Source: a virus. From it: DNA of 36,266 bases. The stretch is taken from positions 1 through 36,266 of IMG/VR virus record IMGVR_UViG_3300037261_000024. One strand, written 5' to 3'. The translations under genes and the position numbers were made by a program. A model generated the notes under the pieces. The model was not told the origin of the DNA. It made no database searches and was given only the letters and a program-made list of their open reading frames with translations. Shown piece after piece: positions 6,322 through 16,486 of the stretch (position 1 is its first letter; each line of letters opens with the position of its first letter).

Positions 6322-7353
6322 CTAAAAGCTCACCACGAGCGCGTAGCCGTCGCCGCCGTTCCCGCCAGCCCCGCCGCCGCCGGTATCGGTGCCACAACCT
6401 CCGCCGCCACCTGCTCCGCCGGGGAAGCCACCGTTACCACCGGCTGCGCCTGACGTGTTGCTGGTGACCGTTCCCCCACCGCCGCCGCCACCAGAGCCAG
6501 CGCTGACACCGAGCACGCCATCAGGACCATTGGCTCCGGCCGTTGGCGAGGCCCCGTCTGTGCCAACCGCCCCGCCGCCGCCACCAGAGCCATAGGTGGT
6601 TCCCGTGCCGCCGCCAGCCTTGCCGGCGACGAGTCCGGGTGTCGCCGTGGCACCCGTACCTACGCCGCCTCCGCCGCCACCGTAGATAGATTGGCCACCC
6701 GGACCGTTGGCTGGGGTATTGGTGTGGCCACCGCCGCCAGCGCCGCCCCATTCGGCCATGTTGCCGGCAGCAGCGGAAATGGTCCCGGCACCACCACCAC
6801 CGCCAACCTGTTGCGTGATAAGGCCAGTCCCAGGGAAGCCGCCCTGGGCGACCGCCGTGTTCGGGTTGGGGGCCAGGCCGACACCGGCCGTCCCACCCCC
6901 ACCGCCACCGCCGCCAGCAACCGCTGTAATGGCACCGAACCCGCCTCCGCCTCCGCCATAGGCCGCGACATACGGAGCCGTCGATGGACCGAACAACGTG
7001 TTGCCGCCGGGGTTGCCGACGATCCCGACCGCACCGGAGCCGCCCGTCGCCCCGCCAATCGCACCGACCCCGACCGTGATCGGAACCTGACCCGGAAGCT
7101 GCGAGGCGAGGATCATCCGCGAGTTACACGCTCCCCCCCCGCCACCCGCGCCGCCCATACGAATCACGGCACCCGTCGTAGAACCGCCACCGCCGCCAGA
7201 ACCGCCAGCGCCCACGAGATAGACGTAGACGAGCTTCGCCCACGGCGGTTTGGCCCAGACGCCCGACGGTGTGGAGCCGCCAAAGGAACGGAACTCCTGG
7301 ACATCGATGAGCCCCGTCCCTGGAAAGAAACCGCGCTCCATGCCGGGGTTCAT
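6322..7353 (-). CDS. glycine-rich adhesin/tail-fibre tip protein
   Basis: 343 residues, extremely glycine-rich from about residue 45 on, with runs such as GGGGGSTTGAV and many GG-x-G units. The N-terminus (IDVQEFRSFGGSTPSGVWAK then KLVYVYLVGAGGSG) matches the start of phage glycine-rich domains, where W-x-x-P precedes a strand ending in VGAGG. Such proteins form polyglycine-sandwich fibre tips or adhesins. The ATG at 7353 is taken, although a second ATG at 7341 is possible. It sits in a block of fibre-like genes between portal and protease. Confidence 0.7.
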   Translation of the reverse strand: MNPGMERGFFPGTGLIDVQEFRSFGGSTPSGVWAKPPWAKLVYVYLVGAGGSGGGGGSTTGAVIRMGGAGGGGGACNSRMILASQLPGQVPITVGVGAIGGATGGSGAVGIVGNPGGNTLFGPSTAPYVAAYGGGGGGFGAITAVAGGGGGGGGTAGVGLAPNPNTAVAQGGFPGTGLITQQVGGGGGAGTISAAAGNMAEWGGAGGGGHTNTPANGPGGQSIYGGGGGGVGTGATATPGLVAGKAGGGTGTTYGSGGGGGAVGTDGASPTAGANGPDGVLGVSAGSGGGGGGGTVTSNTSGAAGGNGGFPGGAGGGGGCGTDTGGGGAGGNGGDGYALVVSF

Positions 7354-7354
7354 C

Positions 7355-7741
7355 CTAGAACGAGCCGCCGAACGCGCTGGCCGTGATGAGTTGGTTTGAC
7401 GCCCAGGACGTGGCGACGAGAGTGTGAGTGGCGGCCAGGATCAGGTTCGCGTAGGTACGGCTGATCCGGAACGGCGCGATCGTGGTCGAAGGCGTGACCA
7501 CTGGCACAACGAAGTTATCGATGAGCCAGTAGGAGCTCGTGTCATAGTAGAAGATCGCCACGACGCCCGCCACGGTCACGCCGGCGCCGACGAGATCGAT
7601 CTCCTCGACCTTCCCGCCGTTCCCGCCGGCGGTGAAGATCGTCACGCTGTGAGACGGCGCGGTGTAGCTGGTATCGGCCGTCGCGCTGAGCTGGGCCGAG
7701 CCTCGGGTAGGGGTGGCCGCAAACGCTGGAGCAGTTGCCAT
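7355..7741 (-). CDS. conserved phage structural protein, function unknown
   Basis: 128 residues beginning MATAPAFAATPTRGSAQLSA. The middle (SVTIFTAGGNGGKVEEIDLV, VVAIFYYDTSSYWLID) looks like an all-beta sandwich and ends in a Phe, as many virion proteins do. I recognise the general pattern from phage structural regions but know no function. It is joined to the upstream fibre gene without spacing (TAGATG) and is followed by the Gly-rich adhesin gene one base after its stop. Confidence 0.7.
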   Translation of the reverse strand: MATAPAFAATPTRGSAQLSATADTSYTAPSHSVTIFTAGGNGGKVEEIDLVGAGVTVAGVVAIFYYDTSSYWLIDNFVVPVVTPSTTIAPFRISRTYANLILAATHTLVATSWASNQLITASAFGGSF

Positions 7742-9382
7742 CTAGCGATACCTCGTAAATAGGAACAGGTTCAGGGCGGCAGCGGGATTGGCGGGCATCC
7801 CGTGCACATGATTGGTCATGGCCGCCGCAGGCCCGGTGCCGATGGCAGCCGCATCCCCAAACGCCTGGGTGACCGGTGTCCCGGCTCCGGTGGCATGGAT
7901 GTGATCGTCGTTGGACTTGGTGATGCTCGTCCCGGCCGCTGCCGTTCCGACCGCTTGCGGTGTGGCGACCGATGGTGCCTCGCCCTTCAGTTCGGCGAAG
8001 ACGATCGACGACACGTTCAGGACAATCGTGCCCGAGGTCGTCTGCTGCCACGCCGTGCCGATGTTGACGGTGCCTTCCTCGATAACCGTGAACGTGCCTT
8101 CGAAGATATCGACGGACTGGTCATAGTCGGTGGCGCGGGTCAGGACGTAGTTGATGAGGCTTGTCCCGACGACGGTCACGGTATAGATGCCGTTCTGCTT
8201 CGGGTCGGCCTGCGTCTTAACCAGCACCCGGTCGTTCGCCGCAACCGCGACGCCATCGATCGTCAGGACGCCGAAGCCGACTTCGGTCAGCGTCGCCCCG
8301 ACTCCCGCGGTGCCGTTGACGTAGTTCGGCGAGCCCGACAGAACGGCGGTCGTCGCCACGCGGCAGGAGGCGCGACCGGATGCTCCCGAGACCGTCAGCA
8401 CGTCGGCCCACTTCACGCCCGCCGTCTGGGACGAGTCGGCCGTGAGGACCTGATTATCCGCACCAACGCCAAGTCGGGCCGCCGTGGCTGAGGCGGTCGC
8501 TGCGATAAGGTCACCCTTGGTCGTGAGGAGTGACAGGAGCACGGCCGTATTGAGCGGCTGGCTCGCGGCTTGCGCTGCTGCTGCTGCTCCGGCGACGTCA
8601 TAGGTACCAGAGATCGCCACCCAGCGCGGATAGCCCGATGCATCGGCGATGAGGGCCATGCCCGGCGTGGCAGGTGTGCCGTTGGGACCGATACCTGTCC
8701 CGTCGTCGAAGCCAGCATAAGCACCAGCCACATCGGCGTAGGTGCGCCAGCCGGATCGGTTCGTGCCTGCGATCGCATCGTAGTAACCCTGCGCGTTGCC
8801 GGCAACCGGCACACCGACCTCGGAATGGACATCAACAAGCGCCTGGCCGTCGACGGTCACCGAAGCGGAGTTGCCGGCAATAGCATTGCCCGAACCAGTC
8901 ACAAACGCGTTCGGGTTAGAGACCGCGTTCCCGTCCGCGATGGTATCCACTCCTTGGTTCGCGCCTGCCGCTACGACCGGCAGGCCCCCGATCTCACCGA
9001 AATAGACCCAGTAGACGCCCGTGCTCTCGACGATTGTCGAGAAGCTATCGCCCGGATCGTTGAACGGAATGCTTGGGTCATCTGTCCCGGTCGTCCCTGC
9101 AACGTTGACCTGCCAGACGTGGGTCCCACTGGCGATCTGGTAGCCCTGCGCGACGACGGTCGTGGCCGCCCAGGCGTGGCCCGGGTCGGCGATCAGACCG
9201 CTATTAGCGACGAACGCTACCCCACCTGCGCCATCGGGTGAGAGGACGAGCGTCGTGTCGGTGGCTGCGGTCGGTAACTCTTCGACTTCGGGCAGGACAT
9301 GGCCGGCGTTCCACTCATCTGTCCCGACCGGACTGGAGTGATCGTCAGGGACGACAACGACAGTGCTGTGGGTAATCGGCAT
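7742..9382 (-). CDS. tail fibre protein
   Basis: 546 residues. The N-terminus (THSTVVVVPDDHSSPVGTDE, then WNAGHV) is the usual opening of phage fibre proteins. Around residue 280-325 is a module KGDLIAATAS ... DNQVLTADSSQTAGVKWADV that recurs in the fibre at 30530-31618. Residues about 340-460 carry an NDRVLVK ... NGIYTV ... YVLTRATDYD domain common in fibre stalks, and the C-terminus has two histidine-containing turns (HIHATG, NHVHG), a metal-binding pattern of trimeric fibre tips. It probably mediates host attachment. It is directly downstream of portal. Confidence 0.8.
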   Translation of the reverse strand: MPITHSTVVVVPDDHSSPVGTDEWNAGHVLPEVEELPTAATDTTLVLSPDGAGGVAFVANSGLIADPGHAWAATTVVAQGYQIASGTHVWQVNVAGTTGTDDPSIPFNDPGDSFSTIVESTGVYWVYFGEIGGLPVVAAGANQGVDTIADGNAVSNPNAFVTGSGNAIAGNSASVTVDGQALVDVHSEVGVPVAGNAQGYYDAIAGTNRSGWRTYADVAGAYAGFDDGTGIGPNGTPATPGMALIADASGYPRWVAISGTYDVAGAAAAAQAASQPLNTAVLLSLLTTKGDLIAATASATAARLGVGADNQVLTADSSQTAGVKWADVLTVSGASGRASCRVATTAVLSGSPNYVNGTAGVGATLTEVGFGVLTIDGVAVAANDRVLVKTQADPKQNGIYTVTVVGTSLINYVLTRATDYDQSVDIFEGTFTVIEEGTVNIGTAWQQTTSGTIVLNVSSIVFAELKGEAPSVATPQAVGTAAAGTSITKSNDDHIHATGAGTPVTQAFGDAAAIGTGPAAAMTNHVHGMPANPAAALNLFLFTRYR

Positions 9383-12022
9383 TTAGGCGTCGTCAGGATC
9401 GTGGTCGGGTTCAGCGTCCATCGGCGTCTCGATGGGCGTCGTCAGGACCGTGGCAATGCGATTGTTACTGTCGCGCTGAACTGTCTTGACCGTTGGTTTC
9501 TGGCGCAGGGCTTCGGTCTGGACGTTGATCGCGTCGGTGACGCCGCTGATATCGAGCGGTGGGACGTTGATGTTGTACACGTCAGGATCTGCCGGCAGGA
9601 CGTTGACGATCGGCGCCTCGATGTTGTGGATGGCCGGCGGAGTGTTGCGGACGGCATCGGCAAGATCAGACGTGGCACGGGCGTGGACGCCGATCTGGTC
9701 GAGCGCCGCCTGGGCGAGTTGCATGCCCGAGACGCGCTCAAGGGCCGAGTTGGCCTTTTGGGCATGATCCGCCGCGAAGGCGAGCACGTCGGCGGTATCG
9801 ACCGGGATGATTGGCCGGAACGGCTCGCTGGTTGCCTTCTGGCTGTCATCGATCACCGGCACCCAGTCCAGCGTGCCGTTGGGATGATCCTCGATGCTGT
9901 CGGCGTCGTCGCTGGCATAGATCTGGCCGTCCCGCGCTGCGCACTCCGGGTCTCCATCGCCGTCGATCGCCTGGACGTACTCGATCCCGGCATCGGTATA
10001 GGACGCGATGGCGCTGGAGTTGTAGGCATCCATCAGTTCGGTCCGGGCGATCATCTCAGCGCGGTACTCGTCAAAGAGCGAGCCGAGGTCAAGGCCGCCG
10101 ATCGTGACTGCGCCGATGCCTTCGATCGAGTCGGCCACGTCGTTGATCGTCGAACCGGCTTCGAGCCCACGAATGATCGCGTCCTGGATCTTGGCTCGCG
10201 TCGTCTCGTTGATCTTCGTAACTCTCGCAGCACCGCGGGCCATCACCCGCTCAACCGCACCAGCGGGGGCAGCCTTGCCGGGTTTGGCCGGGAGTACGTC
10301 GTGGATCTGGGCGTTGACGCTCGTTGCCATCACGTCGAGATGCGGCGCCAGAGCCGCGCTGAGCTTGGTATCGAAGGACCGCGGGAACCAGATCGAGCTA
10401 TCAGCTGGCTTCTTGGCGATGTGGGCGGCGTTCTCGCGCAGGCTCGTGGCGATCTCGTGGCGCTGGGCGGCCAAAACGGTCGCCACCGAGCGCTTGATAA
10501 TCGGCGTCTTAGCTGCGGCGATGCGGTTACGCAGGCTCACGAGTGCCGTGTGGAGCGGCTTGATCGTCGGATGCAGCGCCGGAGTTACGCGAGCCTTGGC
10601 GTTGGCAACGGCACTACCGCCTTGCGTCGTCTCGCCGGCCGTGAGGCTTGCACTGTCCATCTCGCCGGTCGGCGGAGGCGTGGCGATCGCCTGCGGTGCG
10701 GGGGCGGGCTTGTTGATAATCCCGACGGCCTGGGTGAAGCTGTAGACCTGCGTCGCGGGCATCCAGACCTCATCGCCCAGCGGACCGCCGGACTCACCGA
10801 TGACGGATGGGTCGATCGGGTCGAGCCCAAGGATATTGAGGCGCTGGTTATTGGAAAGCGGCTGGCCGAGCGCCTGGGCGGCGTTGACGTAGGTCAGGCT
10901 GTTGTCATCGAACGTCTGGTAGTCAAGGACCAGCGTGAACGTCTCACCCTGACTCTGGTACGGGTCCAGGAGACGAGCCTGCAGGTTCTCGCGGAACGGT
11001 TCAGTGCGCGGCTTGACGGCGTGATCGAGGAGCGTCTGGTCATCGCTCTCGGTGACCTTCGCCGCGCCCGCCGACATGGCCGAGCCGCGCTCATGGATGC
11101 CGATCGCGGTCAGCGGCACGCCCCACAAGCCCATCAGGCTGTCGCGCTGGTAGGTCATCATCTCGATCAGCAGCAGCTCGGACGGCGTGAGCGTCGTCTT
11201 CTGGAAGTCGACCGGCGCGTTGACAATCTGGAGCCGCTTCGCGGCGTCGCTGGTATCGACGATCGTGCGCCAGTCGCGCTCGACCTGGAGGCTCTGCTCC
11301 GGTCCGACGACGCCGGACTTGGGGCTGAGGATGCCGCTCAATCGCCCGCCGGAGCCAATAAGCATCGAGGTATGGCGGTCGAGCCCCTGCGAGTTCGCGA
11401 TCCAGAGCGTCGCCGACTCGACCAGTCCTGTGCCGAAGTGGCCGATATCGGGTGGATCGAGGACGAAGTGGATGCTCTCCTCGAGGCTGATCGTCAGGCC
11501 CGGGTTCGTCGCGGTCTTGTCGAGCTGCCAGGAGACGAGATTGCCGTTGGCGTCCTCGTTCGGGCTCATCCGGTCCGGGCGGATATACAGGATGGCATTC
11601 GGCTCGCCGAACGTGTTCAGCCCATCGAGGTACCAAAACGAGTTGCCGCACAGCCCGATGTGCCGACAGGTCAAGCGCCACAGCGCGGTCCGGAACATCT
11701 GCTGCCCGACCGGCAGGTTCGCCATCGGCTTCTCAAGGAGCGTCCGGATGTCCTGCGCATCCGTGCCGGCGTAGTCGTCATCGACCGTATCGCCGTCACC
11801 GTCCTCGATGTGCCACGGCAACCCTTGGACCTTGCCCGCGATCACGAGCTCAGCCGCGCGGACCCAGGGCACCTCAATCCCGAGCTTCCACGCCTGGCGC
11901 ATCTTCTGTTGCGGACTCTGCTGGCCACCGAGACTCGACAGCGGGAACTCGGTCATCAGCACGCCCGCCCCCGGACCGATTGGGCCGGCCTTGGCTGGAC
12001 GGGTCGGGATGTACAGGCTCAC
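9383..12022 (-). CDS. portal protein fused to MuF head morphogenesis domain
   Basis: 879 residues starting with GTG. Residues about 30-430 are a portal of the HK97/SPP1 group (VPWVRAAELVIAGKVQGLPW, LILEKP-like TLLEKPMANLP, GNSFWYLDGL, YQRDSLMGLWGVPLTAIGIH). Residues about 560-720 are a Mu gpF-like domain with RTELMDAYNSSAIASYTDAG near 660 and CAARDGQIY ... HPNGTLDWVPV near 690-720. After that comes a roughly 150-residue tail ending VKTVQRDSNNRIATVLT. The portal ring forms the DNA entry and tail docking site; MuF domains assist head assembly or enter the head. Two proteins usually made separately are one chain here. Confidence 0.87.
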   Translation of the reverse strand: MSLYIPTRPAKAGPIGPGAGVLMTEFPLSSLGGQQSPQQKMRQAWKLGIEVPWVRAAELVIAGKVQGLPWHIEDGDGDTVDDDYAGTDAQDIRTLLEKPMANLPVGQQMFRTALWRLTCRHIGLCGNSFWYLDGLNTFGEPNAILYIRPDRMSPNEDANGNLVSWQLDKTATNPGLTISLEESIHFVLDPPDIGHFGTGLVESATLWIANSQGLDRHTSMLIGSGGRLSGILSPKSGVVGPEQSLQVERDWRTIVDTSDAAKRLQIVNAPVDFQKTTLTPSELLLIEMMTYQRDSLMGLWGVPLTAIGIHERGSAMSAGAAKVTESDDQTLLDHAVKPRTEPFRENLQARLLDPYQSQGETFTLVLDYQTFDDNSLTYVNAAQALGQPLSNNQRLNILGLDPIDPSVIGESGGPLGDEVWMPATQVYSFTQAVGIINKPAPAPQAIATPPPTGEMDSASLTAGETTQGGSAVANAKARVTPALHPTIKPLHTALVSLRNRIAAAKTPIIKRSVATVLAAQRHEIATSLRENAAHIAKKPADSSIWFPRSFDTKLSAALAPHLDVMATSVNAQIHDVLPAKPGKAAPAGAVERVMARGAARVTKINETTRAKIQDAIIRGLEAGSTINDVADSIEGIGAVTIGGLDLGSLFDEYRAEMIARTELMDAYNSSAIASYTDAGIEYVQAIDGDGDPECAARDGQIYASDDADSIEDHPNGTLDWVPVIDDSQKATSEPFRPIIPVDTADVLAFAADHAQKANSALERVSGMQLAQAALDQIGVHARATSDLADAVRNTPPAIHNIEAPIVNVLPADPDVYNINVPPLDISGVTDAINVQTEALRQKPTVKTVQRDSNNRIATVLTTPIETPMDAEPDHDPDDA

Positions 12023-12025
12023 GGT

Positions 12026-12084
12026 GTTACACCCGCTGCGTAACTGTTACGATGCACGCGTAACTTCGTAACAGGAGCCGTTAC
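12026..12084. promoter_or_regulatory. cluster of six GTAAC/GTTAC motifs between divergent genes
   Basis: GTTAC at 12026, GTAAC at 12040, GTTAC at 12046, GTAAC at 12060 and 12068, and GTTAC at 12080 fall within 59 bases; 12040-12050 is the inverted repeat GTAAC-T-GTTAC. It fills the gap between the GTG of portal and the ATG of the plus-strand gene, whose ribosome site (AGGAG, 12074-12078) lies inside it. A dimeric DNA-binding protein acting on both genes is the simplest reading. Related motifs precede the terminase genes at 14425-14459. Confidence 0.5.
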
Positions 12085-12378
12085 ATGAGCCGAGCCGAGT
12101 ACATGCGCGAGTACCGGGCCAAGCGAACCGCCGCCGAACGGGACGCGACCGTAAGGATGGTCGGCCTTGTCGGCAGTTCGACGAGCGAAGGCGACGTGGC
12201 CGTAATCTTGGGTCAGTCCAAGCGCATCGCCGAACTGGAGACCGAGGTCAAGCACCTGAAGGCTGAACTGGCGAAGCGCGTGACGACGTTCGAATACGGC
12301 GGCGGAATGATCGCCGGCTCGTTCAACACCCGCCCGTTCACGCCGGTACCGCGCGAGCGCGACAAGCCGAAGAAATAG
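12085..12378 (+). CDS. small coiled-coil protein, only plus-strand gene
   Basis: 97 residues. It opens MSRAEYMREYRAKRTAAERD, a basic helical start seen in many short phage proteins, followed by a predicted coiled coil (RIAELETEVKHLKAELAKR) and a basic Pro-rich tail. The ATG has a clear AGGAG seven bases upstream. It is oriented against every other gene here and converges on the TM gene at 12381, two bases apart. A regulatory or DNA-binding role is conceivable from the basic N-terminus plus coiled coil but is not shown. Confidence 0.75.
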   Translation: MSRAEYMREYRAKRTAAERDATVRMVGLVGSSTSEGDVAVILGQSKRIAELETEVKHLKAELAKRVTTFEYGGGMIAGSFNTRPFTPVPRERDKPKK

Positions 12379-12380
12379 CC

Positions 12381-12524
12381 TCACGGCGTCCGCCGATCGT
12401 GCACGACCACCAGCGCCACCATCCAGGCAGCAGCCACGATCAGACCCAACCACCACACGATCGCAGCGCCACCGGCCACGGCGAACACGAAGCCGGCGTC
12501 GAGCGCTGACAGGCTGGCGGTCAT
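12381..12524 (-). CDS. 47-residue single-pass membrane protein
   Basis: ATG at 12524 overlaps the upstream stop (ATGA). The product is mostly one long hydrophobic stretch (FVFAVAGGAAIVWWLGLIVA, continuing AAAWMVALVVV), long enough for one or two short helices, and ends in HDRRTP. It could be a holin-like or other inner-membrane phage protein. It follows the terminase genes and a 54-residue gene and ends two bases before the stop of the convergent plus-strand gene. Confidence 0.6.
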   Translation of the reverse strand: MTASLSALDAGFVFAVAGGAAIVWWLGLIVAAAWMVALVVVHDRRTP

Positions 12525-12685
12525 TTATTCCGTCCCGGCGATGGGATGATAGCTTCGCCTGTCACTTTGACCGTCGCGTCGTAGATATCGGCCAAGAGAA
12601 ACAGCATGGCGCGATAGCTCTTATACGGCTCGGGCAGTGAGGCATCCTTGGTCGGCCCCCATGTCCGGTACTTGCGCCGCTTCAC
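12521..12685 (-). CDS. small protein of unknown function after terminase
   Basis: 54 residues from the GTG at 12685, which overlaps the terminase stop (GTGA). It begins VKRRKYRTWGPTKDASLPEP and ends VTGEAIIPSPGRNK; the middle (YRAMLFLLADIYDATVKV) is a probable amphipathic helix. No motif is recognised. Coupling at both ends (GTGA and ATGA) supports it as a translated gene. Confidence 0.6.
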   Translation of the reverse strand: MKRRKYRTWGPTKDASLPEPYKSYRAMLFLLADIYDATVKVTGEAIIPSPGRNK

Positions 12686-13998
12686 GCCACGCCACCCACA
12701 CGCTGCCCAGCAAGCTGCGCCCACGGGTTGTCCTCGAAGCTGCGATCCAGGGCCACGACGGCATAACGCAGTGCGTCGGCGGCGTCGTCATTGATCTCGA
12801 TCGGGACCTCGCGGAAGCCGCCGGTGCGATCCTTGGCCCAGGTATAACCGGGCAGTTCACCGAGCAACCCGGTGCAGGACGGTGCGACGGTCATGCCCCG
12901 GGCAATGGCAGTGGCAACCGCACCGATGCCCGGTCCTACGGCGTTGTTCGCAGGTTCCATCGGGATACCGGCACGCTGGCACTGGAGGATGTAGGCAGGC
13001 TCGGACGGATCGGCGTAGAACGTCGTGACGTGGTGCGTCTCCTGCACGAAGCGCAGCGCTGGGATGATCCGGTCGATCGTCTGGCCTTTCTCGTAGACCT
13101 CATCAATCACGGCCAGCCTGCCTGTCCCGGACTGCCCGACCACCTCGCAGGCGAAGGCGTGCACGAAACCCCAATCCACTCCTGCGATCACGCGCTTGAA
13201 CTCACGCGTCTCGGGCTCGCGGATCTGGCCATCTGGCAGCGTCCAGATCGTGCCTTCGGCCGCTTCCCACTCGCCGTAGAAGTAACGGCGTTTCAGGTAG
13301 TCGTCGGCCTGGCTGTGGGCGTCGTTGACGTAATCCTCGGGCAGCAGCGGGTTGTCGAACGTCGAAGCATGAAGGTAGACGCGAGCCGCTGACGGCGGCG
13401 TAAACCTCACCTTCAGCCAGTGCTTTGGGCTGGCGGGGTTGGTGGCTGCGGCGATCTGGTGGTACGGGATGCCCGGCCAGCTTAGTCGGCCCTTGACCAT
13501 GCTCCAGTCCATCTCGGTGACCTCTGCCGCCTCATCGACAAACGCCCAGCCGAGTTCCACGGAGCCCACCTTGGAAGGAAGGCCGGTGATCGGGTCAGGG
13601 TCAAGGCCGAACAGCCAGATACGTGAGCCGTTCGCCAGCTCGTACCAGTGCTGGCTTAGGTTGTGCCGAGCGATCGCCCAACGCGGGATGACATCGACCA
13701 ACAACGTACGCTCAGTCGAGGCATCGAGACTACGACTCGTCTTGCGGAACAGGCCGATCGGAATGCCTGGGTAGTGCTTGGCGAGCCAGTACGCCTTCTC
13801 GCAGCCGATGCGCGACTTGCCGGCGCGGTAGGCCCCCGAATACAGGAGCTCTGGAGCCTCGCTATTGAAGAACGTTCGCTGTTGCTCGTTGGCGAACGCC
13901 ACACCGCGCTCGTCCTCGTTGCGCGTCTTCTCCTGACGGGCTCTCACGCGCAGAACGCCCATCGCTGCAGCGGTTTGGAGCGGTGTGGCGAAGGTCAT
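12682..13998 (-). CDS. terL: terminase large subunit
   Basis: 438 residues, the ATPase and nuclease of the DNA packaging motor. Walker A is SGAYRAGKS at 54-62 with K61 and S62; Walker B is WAFVDEAAE at 151-159 with D155-E156; the coupling motif is AAATNP at 183-188. The RNase H-like nuclease has D275 (IAGVDWGF), D330 (FYADPSEP) and D404/D408 (INDDAADALRY). Length and motif spacing fit T4-type/PBSX-like TerL. The start overlaps the small subunit stop (ATGA). Confidence 0.93.
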   Translation of the reverse strand: MTFATPLQTAAAMGVLRVRARQEKTRNEDERGVAFANEQQRTFFNSEAPELLYSGAYRAGKSRIGCEKAYWLAKHYPGIPIGLFRKTSRSLDASTERTLLVDVIPRWAIARHNLSQHWYELANGSRIWLFGLDPDPITGLPSKVGSVELGWAFVDEAAEVTEMDWSMVKGRLSWPGIPYHQIAAATNPASPKHWLKVRFTPPSAARVYLHASTFDNPLLPEDYVNDAHSQADDYLKRRYFYGEWEAAEGTIWTLPDGQIREPETREFKRVIAGVDWGFVHAFACEVVGQSGTGRLAVIDEVYEKGQTIDRIIPALRFVQETHHVTTFYADPSEPAYILQCQRAGIPMEPANNAVGPGIGAVATAIARGMTVAPSCTGLLGELPGYTWAKDRTGGFREVPIEINDDAADALRYAVVALDRSFEDNPWAQLAGQRVGGVA

Positions 13999-14423
13999 GC
14001 GCCGGCCAAAATGCGCTCTGCTTCAGCCAGCGCTTCGGAGTAATCCACGCCCATCTCCTCGGATAAGCGCCGGACCTCGGCCTCAAGTTCGATATGAACA
14101 TCGACCCGCTCACGCCAGCGGTCACCGAACCTTCGGGCGGCGATTGCCAGCGCATCTGTCGTCGTTCTGATCTTCTTGACTGCCGTTGCGATTAATGCCG
14201 ACTCGGCCTGAAACTCAGCCGCTCGGATCGCGTCGGCAAACTCGGCATAGATCGGGAGCATCGGACGAACCGGGTCGCGAGCCTCGCCTCGCGCCACCCA
14301 CTCGAAGAACGTGGCCCGGTCGACGCCGAACGCACCAGCCGCCACATCGGGATGCACGCCGTACTGCACGAGCGTTACGATCCCGACATGGATCTCCGGC
14401 GTGAGCTTCGTCGGCCGCGCCAT
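13995..14423 (-). CDS. terS: terminase small subunit
   Basis: 142 residues. The first 60 contain a helix-turn-helix (TPEIHVGIVTLVQYGVHPDV, then GVDRATFFEWVARGE) as in the DNA-recognition domain of small terminases, followed by helices and a charged C-terminal coil for oligomerisation and TerL contact. It would recognise the packaging site and activate TerL. The ATG at 14423 lies against a tandem repeat rather than a standard Shine-Dalgarno site, which is unusual here and may mean control at this start. Confidence 0.85.
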   Translation of the reverse strand: MARPTKLTPEIHVGIVTLVQYGVHPDVAAGAFGVDRATFFEWVARGEARDPVRPMLPIYAEFADAIRAAEFQAESALIATAVKKIRTTTDALAIAARRFGDRWRERVDVHIELEAEVRRLSEEMGVDYSEALAEAERILAGA

Positions 14424-14424
14424 C

Positions 14425-14459
14425 TTACGTAAGGGTTACGGGTTTACGTAAGGGTTACG
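14425..14459. repeat. tandem 19-bp repeat before the terminase genes
   Basis: TTACGTAAGGGTTACG occurs at 14425-14440 and again at 14444-14459, a period of 19. Each unit contains the palindrome TTACGTAA and the inverted pair GTAA-GGG-TTAC. The right copy overlaps the stop of the upstream gene and the left copy ends one base from the terS start. Candidate roles are an operator for terminase expression or a packaging recognition site. Confidence 0.6.
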
Positions 14460-14913
14460 CGGCTGGCTTTGGATTGCCGTTCTGATCGACCGGATTGCCG
14501 CTGGCGTCGACCATCGGCGTCCCGTCGGCGTTCGTGCCCTGGACGAAGGCAGGCGGAGTGACGACAGCCGGTGGATTGGCGGCCTTAGCTGCCGCGTCAA
14601 CGGCCTGCACCGCCGCGTCAGCTGCGGTTGCCTGCGCCGTCAGGGTGTCGATTGTGGCCTGGCTGATCTGGCCTGCGGTCAACGTGGCAATGGTCGCCTG
14701 AAGCGCCGCAAGCGCGGCTTCGGTATCGGTTGCCTCTGCAGCGATGTCGGTACCGATCTGGTTCAGAGCGGCGGTAAGTCCGGAAAGGTCTGCCATTTCG
14801 TTCTCCCTGTTATCTGCGATTTGCTGCTTGATTTCGCCAAGCTCTTCGATGATCCAGCGGAAGGCCCGGTGCTCGGCTCGATCCGGGTCCAACGCTTCGA
14901 GGATTTCCTCCAT
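14455..14913 (-). CDS. helical/coiled-coil phage protein with possible internal start
   Basis: 152 residues. Residues 1-39 are charged helix (MEEILEALDPDRAEHRAFRW). From residue 40 an Ala/Thr-rich helical region (MADLSGLTAALNQIGTDIAA) resembles coiled coils of phage virion or lysis-region proteins, and the end is a Pro/Asn-rich tail (PVDQNGNPKPAA). The ATG at 14913 has AAGGAGG, but the internal ATG at 14796 also has AGGGAG at good spacing, so a shorter 113-residue form is likely made too. Function unknown. Confidence 0.7.
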   Translation of the reverse strand: MEEILEALDPDRAEHRAFRWIIEELGEIKQQIADNRENEMADLSGLTAALNQIGTDIAAEATDTEAALAALQATIATLTAGQISQATIDTLTAQATAADAAVQAVDAAAKAANPPAVVTPPAFVQGTNADGTPMVDASGNPVDQNGNPKPAA

Positions 14914-14922
14914 TACGCCTCC

Positions 14923-14949
14923 TTAGGCGGGGTCCGGTCCTTCGCCCAT
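14923..14949 (-). CDS. 8-residue mini-ORF with perfect ribosome site
   Basis: ATG at 14949 follows AGGAGG at ideal spacing and encodes MGEGPDPA. Its TAA begins the AAGGAGG of the next gene. It may be a leader that hands ribosomes on to the 152-residue gene, or only a fortuitous frame; no product function is implied. Confidence 0.3.
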   Translation of the reverse strand: MGEGPDPA

Positions 14950-14959
14950 CACGAACCTC

Positions 14960-15121
14960 CTAGCCGAAGATGAACGCGGCGGCGAAGAACGCCAGCCCGA
15001 GATCGACGATATCGATGCCGAGCTTGCTCCCGACGCCAAACGCCGCCAAGAGGAAGGCCACGATGGCGAGGATGATCAACAGCAGGCTGACGCCGTTCCG
15101 ACTGACGACGATGTTAGTCAT
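14960..15121 (-). CDS. 53-residue two-helix membrane protein
   Basis: The ATG at 15121 overlaps the stop of the holin-like gene (ATGA). Residues 12-29 (SLLLIILAIVAFLLAAFGV) and 40-52 (LGLAFFAAAFIFG) are hydrophobic, separated by a short GSKLGIDIVD loop. Small two-helix proteins of this type are frequent in the lysis region of phages infecting high-GC hosts. It may assist the holin; function is inferred from position. Confidence 0.65.
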   Translation of the reverse strand: MTNIVVSRNGVSLLLIILAIVAFLLAAFGVGSKLGIDIVDLGLAFFAAAFIFG

Positions 15122-15435
15122 GGCTTGGTCGCTCCCTTGGCTACAGGTGGCGTGGGCGGTGTCGCAACGGGCGCCGGATCAGCCGCAGGCGGAACGGCAA
15201 CAGTCGTGACGTAGTTCGGCTGACCGCCCGGTGACGTGACGTTGAACGTGGCTCCGGGGTTGAGCGTCGGCGGCTGGTAAGCGATCAAGCCAATCAGCGC
15301 CGCTGCGGCGATGTTGATCCCAGCCACGATCGAAGCGTCGATGGGGTGGCCCTGACCGTTGAGCGCCAGGACCACAACGTTGAAGACCGCCGTAAACGCA
15401 CCGAGGATGAGGTTGGTAGGACGGCCCAGGATCAT
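15118..15435 (-). CDS. holin-like membrane protein
   Basis: 105 residues with two transmembrane stretches (LILGAFTAVFNVVVLAL at about 9-25, IVAGINIAAAALIGLIAYQ at about 36-54) and a Pro/Ala/Thr-rich soluble C-terminus ending KGATKP. Two helices, a short loop and a polar tail fit class II holins. It lies in a membrane-protein cluster near a possible peptidase at 15917. Both neighbours overlap it by four bases. The assignment rests on topology and context. Confidence 0.6.
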   Translation of the reverse strand: MILGRPTNLILGAFTAVFNVVVLALNGQGHPIDASIVAGINIAAAALIGLIAYQPPTLNPGATFNVTSPGGQPNYVTTVAVPPAADPAPVATPPTPPVAKGATKP

Positions 15436-15920
15436 GGCCGCACCGCTCCCGGCCCGGTGTACGGGTCGTCATTGTTGAAGCCCGCTGCCAGTCCGAAGGC
15501 GAAGTCCCAGCCGGCAGCCGGAGGCGCGTCAAGCGTCTCGGTCAGGGCGCCGTCGCGGAAGACGCCGTACTTGGAGGTAGCGCTGTCAGCCGCAACGCCC
15601 GAGAAGCCAAACTCCTTGGCTGCACCGGGTGCAGGGTTGGTATCGGCGCCGGTCGTGTTTCCGAGACTGGCCTGGAAGACAAAGCCCGCGTCAAGCTCGG
15701 CGGCGGTGTACTGGGTCATCGTCGGCGCGGCGGTTGTCGTCACGGGTACGGCGCTGGTCGTGGTTGTGGCCGGCGGCGCGGCGGCTGCGCCGACAAGTTC
15801 GAAGGCATAGCCCGATGCTCGGTCGAGCCAGAACGTCGGATCCTTGCCCGCCTTGACGAGGCCCAGGGCGTACTTGATGTCCTGGCTGATCGCCATCGTA
15901 AGATCGCTGGTTCTGCTCAT
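15432..15920 (-). CDS. unknown protein, Thr/Ala/Pro linker, possible virion protein
   Basis: 162 residues from the ATG at 15920 (AGGAGG six bases upstream, ATGA overlap with the preceding gene). The N-terminal third is helical (AISQDIKYALGLVKAGKDPT). A low-complexity Thr/Pro/Ala linker follows (PPATTTTSAVPVTTTAAPT), then a beta-rich segment with DAGFVFQASLGNTTGADTNP. The layout suggests a structural or surface protein. No family recognised. Confidence 0.65.
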   Translation of the reverse strand: MSRTSDLTMAISQDIKYALGLVKAGKDPTFWLDRASGYAFELVGAAAAPPATTTTSAVPVTTTAAPTMTQYTAAELDAGFVFQASLGNTTGADTNPAPGAAKEFGFSGVAADSATSKYGVFRDGALTETLDAPPAAGWDFAFGLAAGFNNDDPYTGPGAVRP

Positions 15921-16486
15921 GTAGTGCCTCCTACTGGTTGGTTGACAAGATACCCCACGGTGATGTTGTGAGCGCCGCCACTCTCGATGAACTTCCGCAC
16001 GACCGCGGCCGGAACCCACTGGCCGTAGCCGGACGTGTCGGGGTTCATCGGCTGATAGAACCGGACGCCTGATTTCAGCGAGCGATAGCAGGCGAATACG
16101 TCGTGGAGGAAGTGGTTCGGGCCGGCCTGGTACTGGAGCGCGTCCGGCAGGCTGTCACACCAGCCCTGGATGATCAAGCCCGTTCCGTTCATCAGGTGGA
16201 AGCTGCATTCGCCCCACGCCCAGCCGGTCGGCTGGATCAGCGTGAGTCCTGCAACGGCCTTGATCTCGAGGGCCAGCTGACCGAGGGTGATCCCGTCGGG
16301 ATCCTTCGTCACGGCCCGGTAGACGCTGCCATCCTTGTCCACCCTGCCGTTCGTCGCCCAGGCGACAGCCCGACCAGCTGAGGTATCACCACAAGTGACG
16401 TAGGCACCGTTCGCGCCGGGCGTGTGGTCGTCAACCTCGCTGTCGGAATGAGGGATCAATCGCCCGAAGGCTTTGGGCTGGATCAT
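15917..16486 (-). CDS. papain-like/C39-like protein, candidate lysis or cell-wall peptidase
   Basis: 189 residues. C32 in YVTCGDTSAGRAVAWATNG sits at a helix start as the catalytic Cys does in C39-type folds. H128 in NHFLHDVFACY and N148/D150 in RFYQPMNPDT fall where His and Asp/Asn are expected. GLIIQGW ... LPDALQ and a terminal QWVPAAVVRKFIE match a pattern I have seen in phage lysis regions. It could act on cell wall or on host or phage protein. No signal peptide. Neighbouring holin-like genes favour lysis, but the activity is unproven. Confidence 0.45.
   Translation of the reverse strand: MIQPKAFGRLIPHSDSEVDDHTPGANGAYVTCGDTSAGRAVAWATNGRVDKDGSVYRAVTKDPDGITLGQLALEIKAVAGLTLIQPTGWAWGECSFHLMNGTGLIIQGWCDSLPDALQYQAGPNHFLHDVFACYRSLKSGVRFYQPMNPDTSGYGQWVPAAVVRKFIESGGAHNITVGYLVNQPVGGTT

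Follow-up and report, generated by a model that had tools for sequence, protein, structure and literature searches.

Recognition of the bZIP type is usually considered eukaryotic. The fungal bZIP protein Pap1 contacts TTAC through the motif NxxAQxxFR, and its Arg82 contacts the flanking G (PMC7261193). A repressor of E. coli defence islands, RptR, has been called bZIP-like by its authors (PMC12255303), and Omega (ParB) of pSM19035 is a small oligomer that binds cooperatively to arrays of 7-bp sites, direct or inverted, that cover promoters including its own (PMC9499535). For packaging sites, the anatomy of lambda cosB and gpNu1 is used for comparison (PMC4856287).

The locus compared here with these systems lies in the 36,266-nucleotide virus record IMGVR_UViG_3300037261_000024, the whole of which is referred to as the window. 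It encodes P0001, a 97-residue protein (12085..12378, plus strand) proposed to be a DNA-binding autoregulator, whose closest functional parallels appear to be RptR and RHH array binders. The likeness to each is partial. RptR has a four-helix fold, TAGCTA sites and a type I restriction gene context, whereas P0001 combines a basic N-terminal helix, a coiled coil and a tail with GTAAC sites in a phage packaging context, and searches of Pfam, NCBIfam and the PDB returned no sequence match for it. As with Omega, P0001 is a small protein with a site array that includes its own gene, binding to which is proposed from sequence; however, the Omega heptads are contiguous and the P0001 sites irregularly spaced, and P0001 is predicted to have two long helices with no RHH match, the RHH fold being found instead in proteins that replace P0001 at its locus in relatives L022-L024.

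The two GTAAC clusters of the window

The initial annotation had placed six GTAAC/GTTAC pentamers between the portal gene and the lone plus-strand gene, and they are indeed there: half-sites at 12026(-), 12040(+), 12046(-), 12060(+), 12068(+) and 12080(-), in the order < > < > > <, form a putative operator array of 59 bp (12026..12084). In mixed orientation they fill the 62-bp gap between the portal gene start at 12022 and the P0001 ATG at 12085, a gap shared with the divergent portal gene, whose 879-residue product (9383..12022, minus strand) is a fusion of a portal and a Mu F-like head protein. The 80 bp upstream of the P0001 gene hold 6 GTAAC against 0.05 expected; the count across the whole window is 38 against 23 expected. 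A palindromic core, CGTAAC-T-GTTACG, occupies 12039..12051, a Shine-Dalgarno-like AGGAG of the P0001 gene (12073..12077, plus strand) lies between the last two half-sites, and the last of these (12080..12084) abuts the ATG. A promoter scan of 11950-14600 found no E. coli-type sigma-70 promoter.

The second putative operator (14425..14459) abuts the start of terS and consists of TTACGTAAGGGTTACG in tandem with a period of 19, the copies lying at 14425-14440 and 14444-14459. It contains TTACGTAA twice and starts with the upstream gene's stop codon; the terS ATG ends at 14423. The description of this element as a tandem 19-bp repeat next to a terS that lacks a standard ribosome site was confirmed, as no Shine-Dalgarno sequence is visible ahead of the terS ATG. 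The inverted pairs described for both clusters likewise hold, in the form of a common palindrome, CGTAA-N3-TTACG, which occurs exactly three times in the whole 36 kb, once in the first cluster (at 12039) and twice in the second (14428-14440 and 14447-14459), against an expected count of 0.003 in Markov-1 simulations. Both clusters are far beyond chance, and a chance origin was rejected.

The adjoining terS (13995..14423, minus strand; 142 aa) is assigned by PHROG to the terminase small subunit and has an HTH-like N-terminus; terL (12682..13998, minus strand; 438 aa) belongs to Terminase_3. As a proposed second target, terS is probably under P0001 control in the window phage. In L003, the nearest relative with this type of terS, whose TerS is 84% identical to that of the window, the repeats upstream of terS are absent, so this branch of control would be peculiar to the window phage.

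A phage protein family linked to its arrays

By sequence, P0001 is a member of a phage protein family absent from the libraries searched. The 20 distinct members, collected from IMG/VR in scans that started from terminases, portals and the family itself, share a layout of basic N-terminal helix, coiled coil and conserved tail. In P0001, the corresponding plus-strand segments are MSRAEYMREYRAKR (12085..12126), the proposed DNA-reading helix; RIAELETEVKHLKAELAKRV (12223..12282, approximately residues 47-66), also given as RIAELETEVKHLKAELAKR; and SFNTRPFTPVPR (12319..12354), a tail that reads FNTRPFTPVP. An AlphaFold2 model predicts, at high local confidence, two helices (residues 3-28 and 35-66), with a break at 29-34 and a disordered tail. 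Across the family, the linker that joins the basic segment to the coiled coil ranges from a few to more than 60 residues, often with prolines, and the family profile aligns with the GCN4 zipper (E 3e-4) in the coiled coil only, over positions 26-62. Given this coiled coil, it is plausible that P0001 acts as a dimer. One member, that of L006, has neither the coiled coil nor the site at the start codon described below. Proteins of L048, L049, L051 and L052 matched through the coiled coil alone and were excluded; they form a different small-protein family with the N-terminus MTTAEFAKANLAALEEPVKIRRYTKAVGTYYPEGY and have only the coiled-coil stretch in common with P0001.

None of the families of Pfam, NCBIfam and PHROGs covers P0001. 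Protein searches with P0001, L016 and L010 returned no true relative, PDB sequence searches gave coiled-coil matches only, and a fold search with the P0001 model among solved structures gave no match. A nucleotide search with positions 9000-16000 of the window against 50,697 phage records was also without a match, and the family profile produced a single, spurious coiled-coil match among bacterial genomes, with no host indicated.

When up to 80 bp upstream of the 20 family genes were pooled, GTAAC emerged as the top 5-mer with no prior choice of motif (80 copies). The pentamers are kept in related phages, with at least three GTAAC half-sites ahead of the start codon in 17 of the 20 loci carrying a P0001 relative, where approximately 0.03 are expected per locus. 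A cluster, defined as at least three GTAAC/GTTAC within 70 bp, accompanies the gene in 17/20 loci and is found in 0/91 terminase relatives without the gene, a comparison uncorrected for common descent. A search for conserved spacing had also been proposed as a check, and such spacing holds for one element, a half-site or one-base variant 0-3 nt ahead of the start codon in 19/20 loci, but not for the remaining half-sites, whose orientation and spacing vary. On the coding strand, the site at the start codon reads GTTAC in some loci and GTAAC in others, which argues for recognition of DNA rather than RNA, and the lack of a fixed orientation or distance among the others points to double-stranded DNA that would be read half-site by half-site.

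In L056, a perfect GTAAC-G-GTTAC (7652-7662; GTAACGGTTAC ahead of the gene) precedes the ATG of a GDP-mannose-dehydratase-like (gmd-like) gene by approximately 10 bp; this gene is perhaps a further target with a second operator. A GTAAC-N4-GTTAC pair at 3937 in L054, inside a Val/Thr/Pro-rich coding stretch, was taken as chance.

The letters of the arrays covary with the N-terminus of the protein. Base 6, directly after GTAAC, is C in 30/32 sites of members with RDRAAYM, A or T in 28/35 sites of those with SRA[AE]YM, and G in 10/13 sites of those with SNAERQ (permutation p 5e-5, relatedness being only partly handled). Base 5 is altered in three loci, to GTAAA (with GTTAA) in L003, GTAAG in L004 and GTAAT in L136, the last from an array of only two sites with the half-site assigned by eye. 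At position -7, counted from the invariant YR, every GTAAC locus encodes R or N, whereas exactly these three have Q, D or T, and this is the sole column among 19 to separate them. In the protein tree, where most forks are weak, L003, L004 and L136 branch apart from one another in nearly all bootstrap replicates, so three separate changes would be needed. Binding of P0001 to the GTAAC sites ahead of its own gene is, on this evidence, very probable.

At the same locus and in the same orientation as P0001, antisense with terL on one side and portal on the other, L022, L023 and L024 encode small RHH proteins, and those of L022 and L024 carry a P0001-like tail (FNTRPFTPVPKGK and EYRPAPKPGKGK). The N-terminal part of P0001 consequently occupies the place of the DNA-binding domain of its relatives. 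The leader of the RHH gene in L022 (3850-3960) contains apparent CCACGT/ACGTGG repeats, as read by eye.

The genomic setting of the P0001-type gene varies. It is divergent from the portal gene in the window, L003-L006, L012, L055, L056 and L062, from terL in L059 and L060, from a terS read by eye as P27-like in L054, and from a small gene preceding terS in L057, and it is co-directional before terL in L058, L061, L070, L071, L073, L136 and L137. As the nearby terminases belong to different Pfam families, gene and array would act as a compact cassette bordering the packaging genes. The earlier idea that the motifs separate packaging genes from their neighbours was half right, in that the gene sits at the packaging-gene edge in many unrelated phages. 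Two of these genomes have further features of their own. The terL of L006 contains an in-frame insertion (948-1784; ACLVAGTMI...VLTHNC, just before DALRYAV) with Intein_splicing and Hint matches, a terL intein, and in L062, positions 2452-2871 and 6446-8383 match overlapping portal residues (583-724 and 10-674), which suggests that the portal/head gene is split or partly duplicated.

Operators, packaging sites or RNA elements

We favour, with a probability of about 0.72, the reading that both clusters are double-stranded DNA operators of P0001, through which it represses its own gene and probably terS too. That the motifs might serve one regulator had been suggested from the window alone; this is now well supported, with P0001 as the regulator, by the co-occurrence of array and gene and by their covariation. 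From the computational results we infer a mechanism in which the basic N-terminal helix would read GTAAC/GTTAC half-sites, while the coiled coil would join two or more such helices through the variable linker; it is proposed that the half-sites can take any orientation and varied spacing because this linker is variable. As the sites extend into the space that separates Shine-Dalgarno from start codon and occupy it fully, bound P0001 should block its own transcription start, amounting to autorepression. Through the tandem repeat, the terS of the window would come under P0001 control as well, the P0001 array could possibly also act on the divergent portal gene, and the conserved tail probably serves to bind a common partner.

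The arrays could instead be cosB- or pac-like packaging sites, with P0001 a small-terminase-like factor that tethers the terminase through its tail, but we consider this unlikely. The P0001-type gene does always have terS, terL or portal as a neighbour, a pattern seen with several unrelated terminases, and a DNA-binding domain followed by coiled coil and tail is a TerS-like layout. Moreover, many independent contigs of one terL clade, that of L061, have, within a few hundred bases of terL, a nearly identical start of approximately CCTnnCCGCGAG (positions 1-20 in L071, L073, L077, L080, L085, L087, L090, L120, L136, L137, L142, L145 and others), which resembles a conserved cos end and, if taken as the physical end, gives an order of end, array, gene and terL comparable to lambda cosN, cosB, Nu1 and A. 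However, contig ends lie near the array in this one cos clade only, the combination of sites near a genome end with a gene before terL is limited to L058, L061, L071, L073, L136 and L137, and most phages of the clade have the ends and terL but neither array nor gene. The first site lies at a variable distance from the cos end (approximately 18-62 bp), whereas lambda cosN-cosB spacing is critical (PMC4856287). Nor are the sites conserved with the terminase: none of the 91 gene-free terminase relatives, many of which have the same ends, carries an array, so the arrays are not needed for packaging. The window already encodes a separate canonical terS and the terS of L003 is free of the repeats, for which reasons packaging is kept as a minority reading; the cos/pac role originally offered for the 14.4-kb set is not supported and was rejected, in view of the same repeat-free relative and of arrays that track the regulator gene, not the terminase. 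Packaging also leaves unexplained why a site occupies the Shine-Dalgarno/start-codon gap in nearly all family loci (19/20). As a separate observation on contig ends, the 42-kb contig G001 has one and the same AAGGCC-GGGCCGCC-type repeat at its two ends (L065:1-200 and the last 200 bases of L066), which probably means that it either joins up with itself or breaks off inside a repetitive gene.

It is very unlikely that the operators belong to another host or phage regulator with P0001 a mere neighbour, since the presence of array and gene coincides across unrelated terminase backgrounds and the array letters covary with the P0001 N-terminus; it counts for this reading that the HTH-like TerS was the only other DNA-binding candidate tested. 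An action as RNA, through leader hairpins or protein sites that hide the ribosome site, seems highly improbable, and the hairpin was rejected. GTAAC-AGGAGCC-GTTAC would be able to pair around the P0001 Shine-Dalgarno, but the single-orientation arrays of L054, L061 and L071 cannot form such a hairpin, orientation differs among phages, and the strand-independent conservation favours the double-stranded DNA operators preferred here.

Resemblance to fungal bZIP recognition

The P0001 family resembles fungal Pap1/Yap bZIP proteins in having a basic helix before a coiled coil and a GTTAC/TTAC half-site (PMC7261193, PMC6545440), the GTTAC form being identical to the half-site of yeast Pap1. A Pap1/Yap-type TTACGTAA is present in the terS repeat of the window and GTTACGTAAC in L006, and position -7 of the family aligns with Pap1 Asn86. 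In four members, SNAERQxxYR has the N, Q, aromatic residue and R of Pap1 NxxAQxxFR, whereas SRAEYMRxYR has only the aromatic residue and R in common with it. A leucine-zipper coiled coil is likewise present, as seen from the GCN4 match and the predicted helix 35-66. Pap1/Yap prefer TTACGTAA. However, the TTAC sites of the P0001 arrays are fixed in neither orientation nor spacing, and the uninterrupted basic-zipper helix and fixed spacing of bZIP proteins contrast with the variable, often proline-containing linker of the P0001 family. No bZIP profile matched the basic part of the family, and Pfam bZIP_2 matched one member, in the coiled coil only (E 0.29). P0001 as a true bZIP was rejected on account of the variable linker and of helices that are not continuous with the zipper, and its resemblance to Pap1 is a lead rather than a sign of membership.

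It is possible, if doubtful, that the family represents a class of phage DNA-binding proteins absent from the libraries searched, in which a flexible basic helix with a coiled coil reads GTTAC by Pap1/Yap-like contacts, of independent or common origin, with base 5 set at the Asn86 position and a reading part that can be swapped for RHH while the tail is kept. With its residue-base covariation and RHH swap, the P0001 family may offer a compact, testable system for how a DNA-reading helix shifts its specificity, and P0001 itself is a candidate switch of packaging genes in abundant uncultured soil phages.
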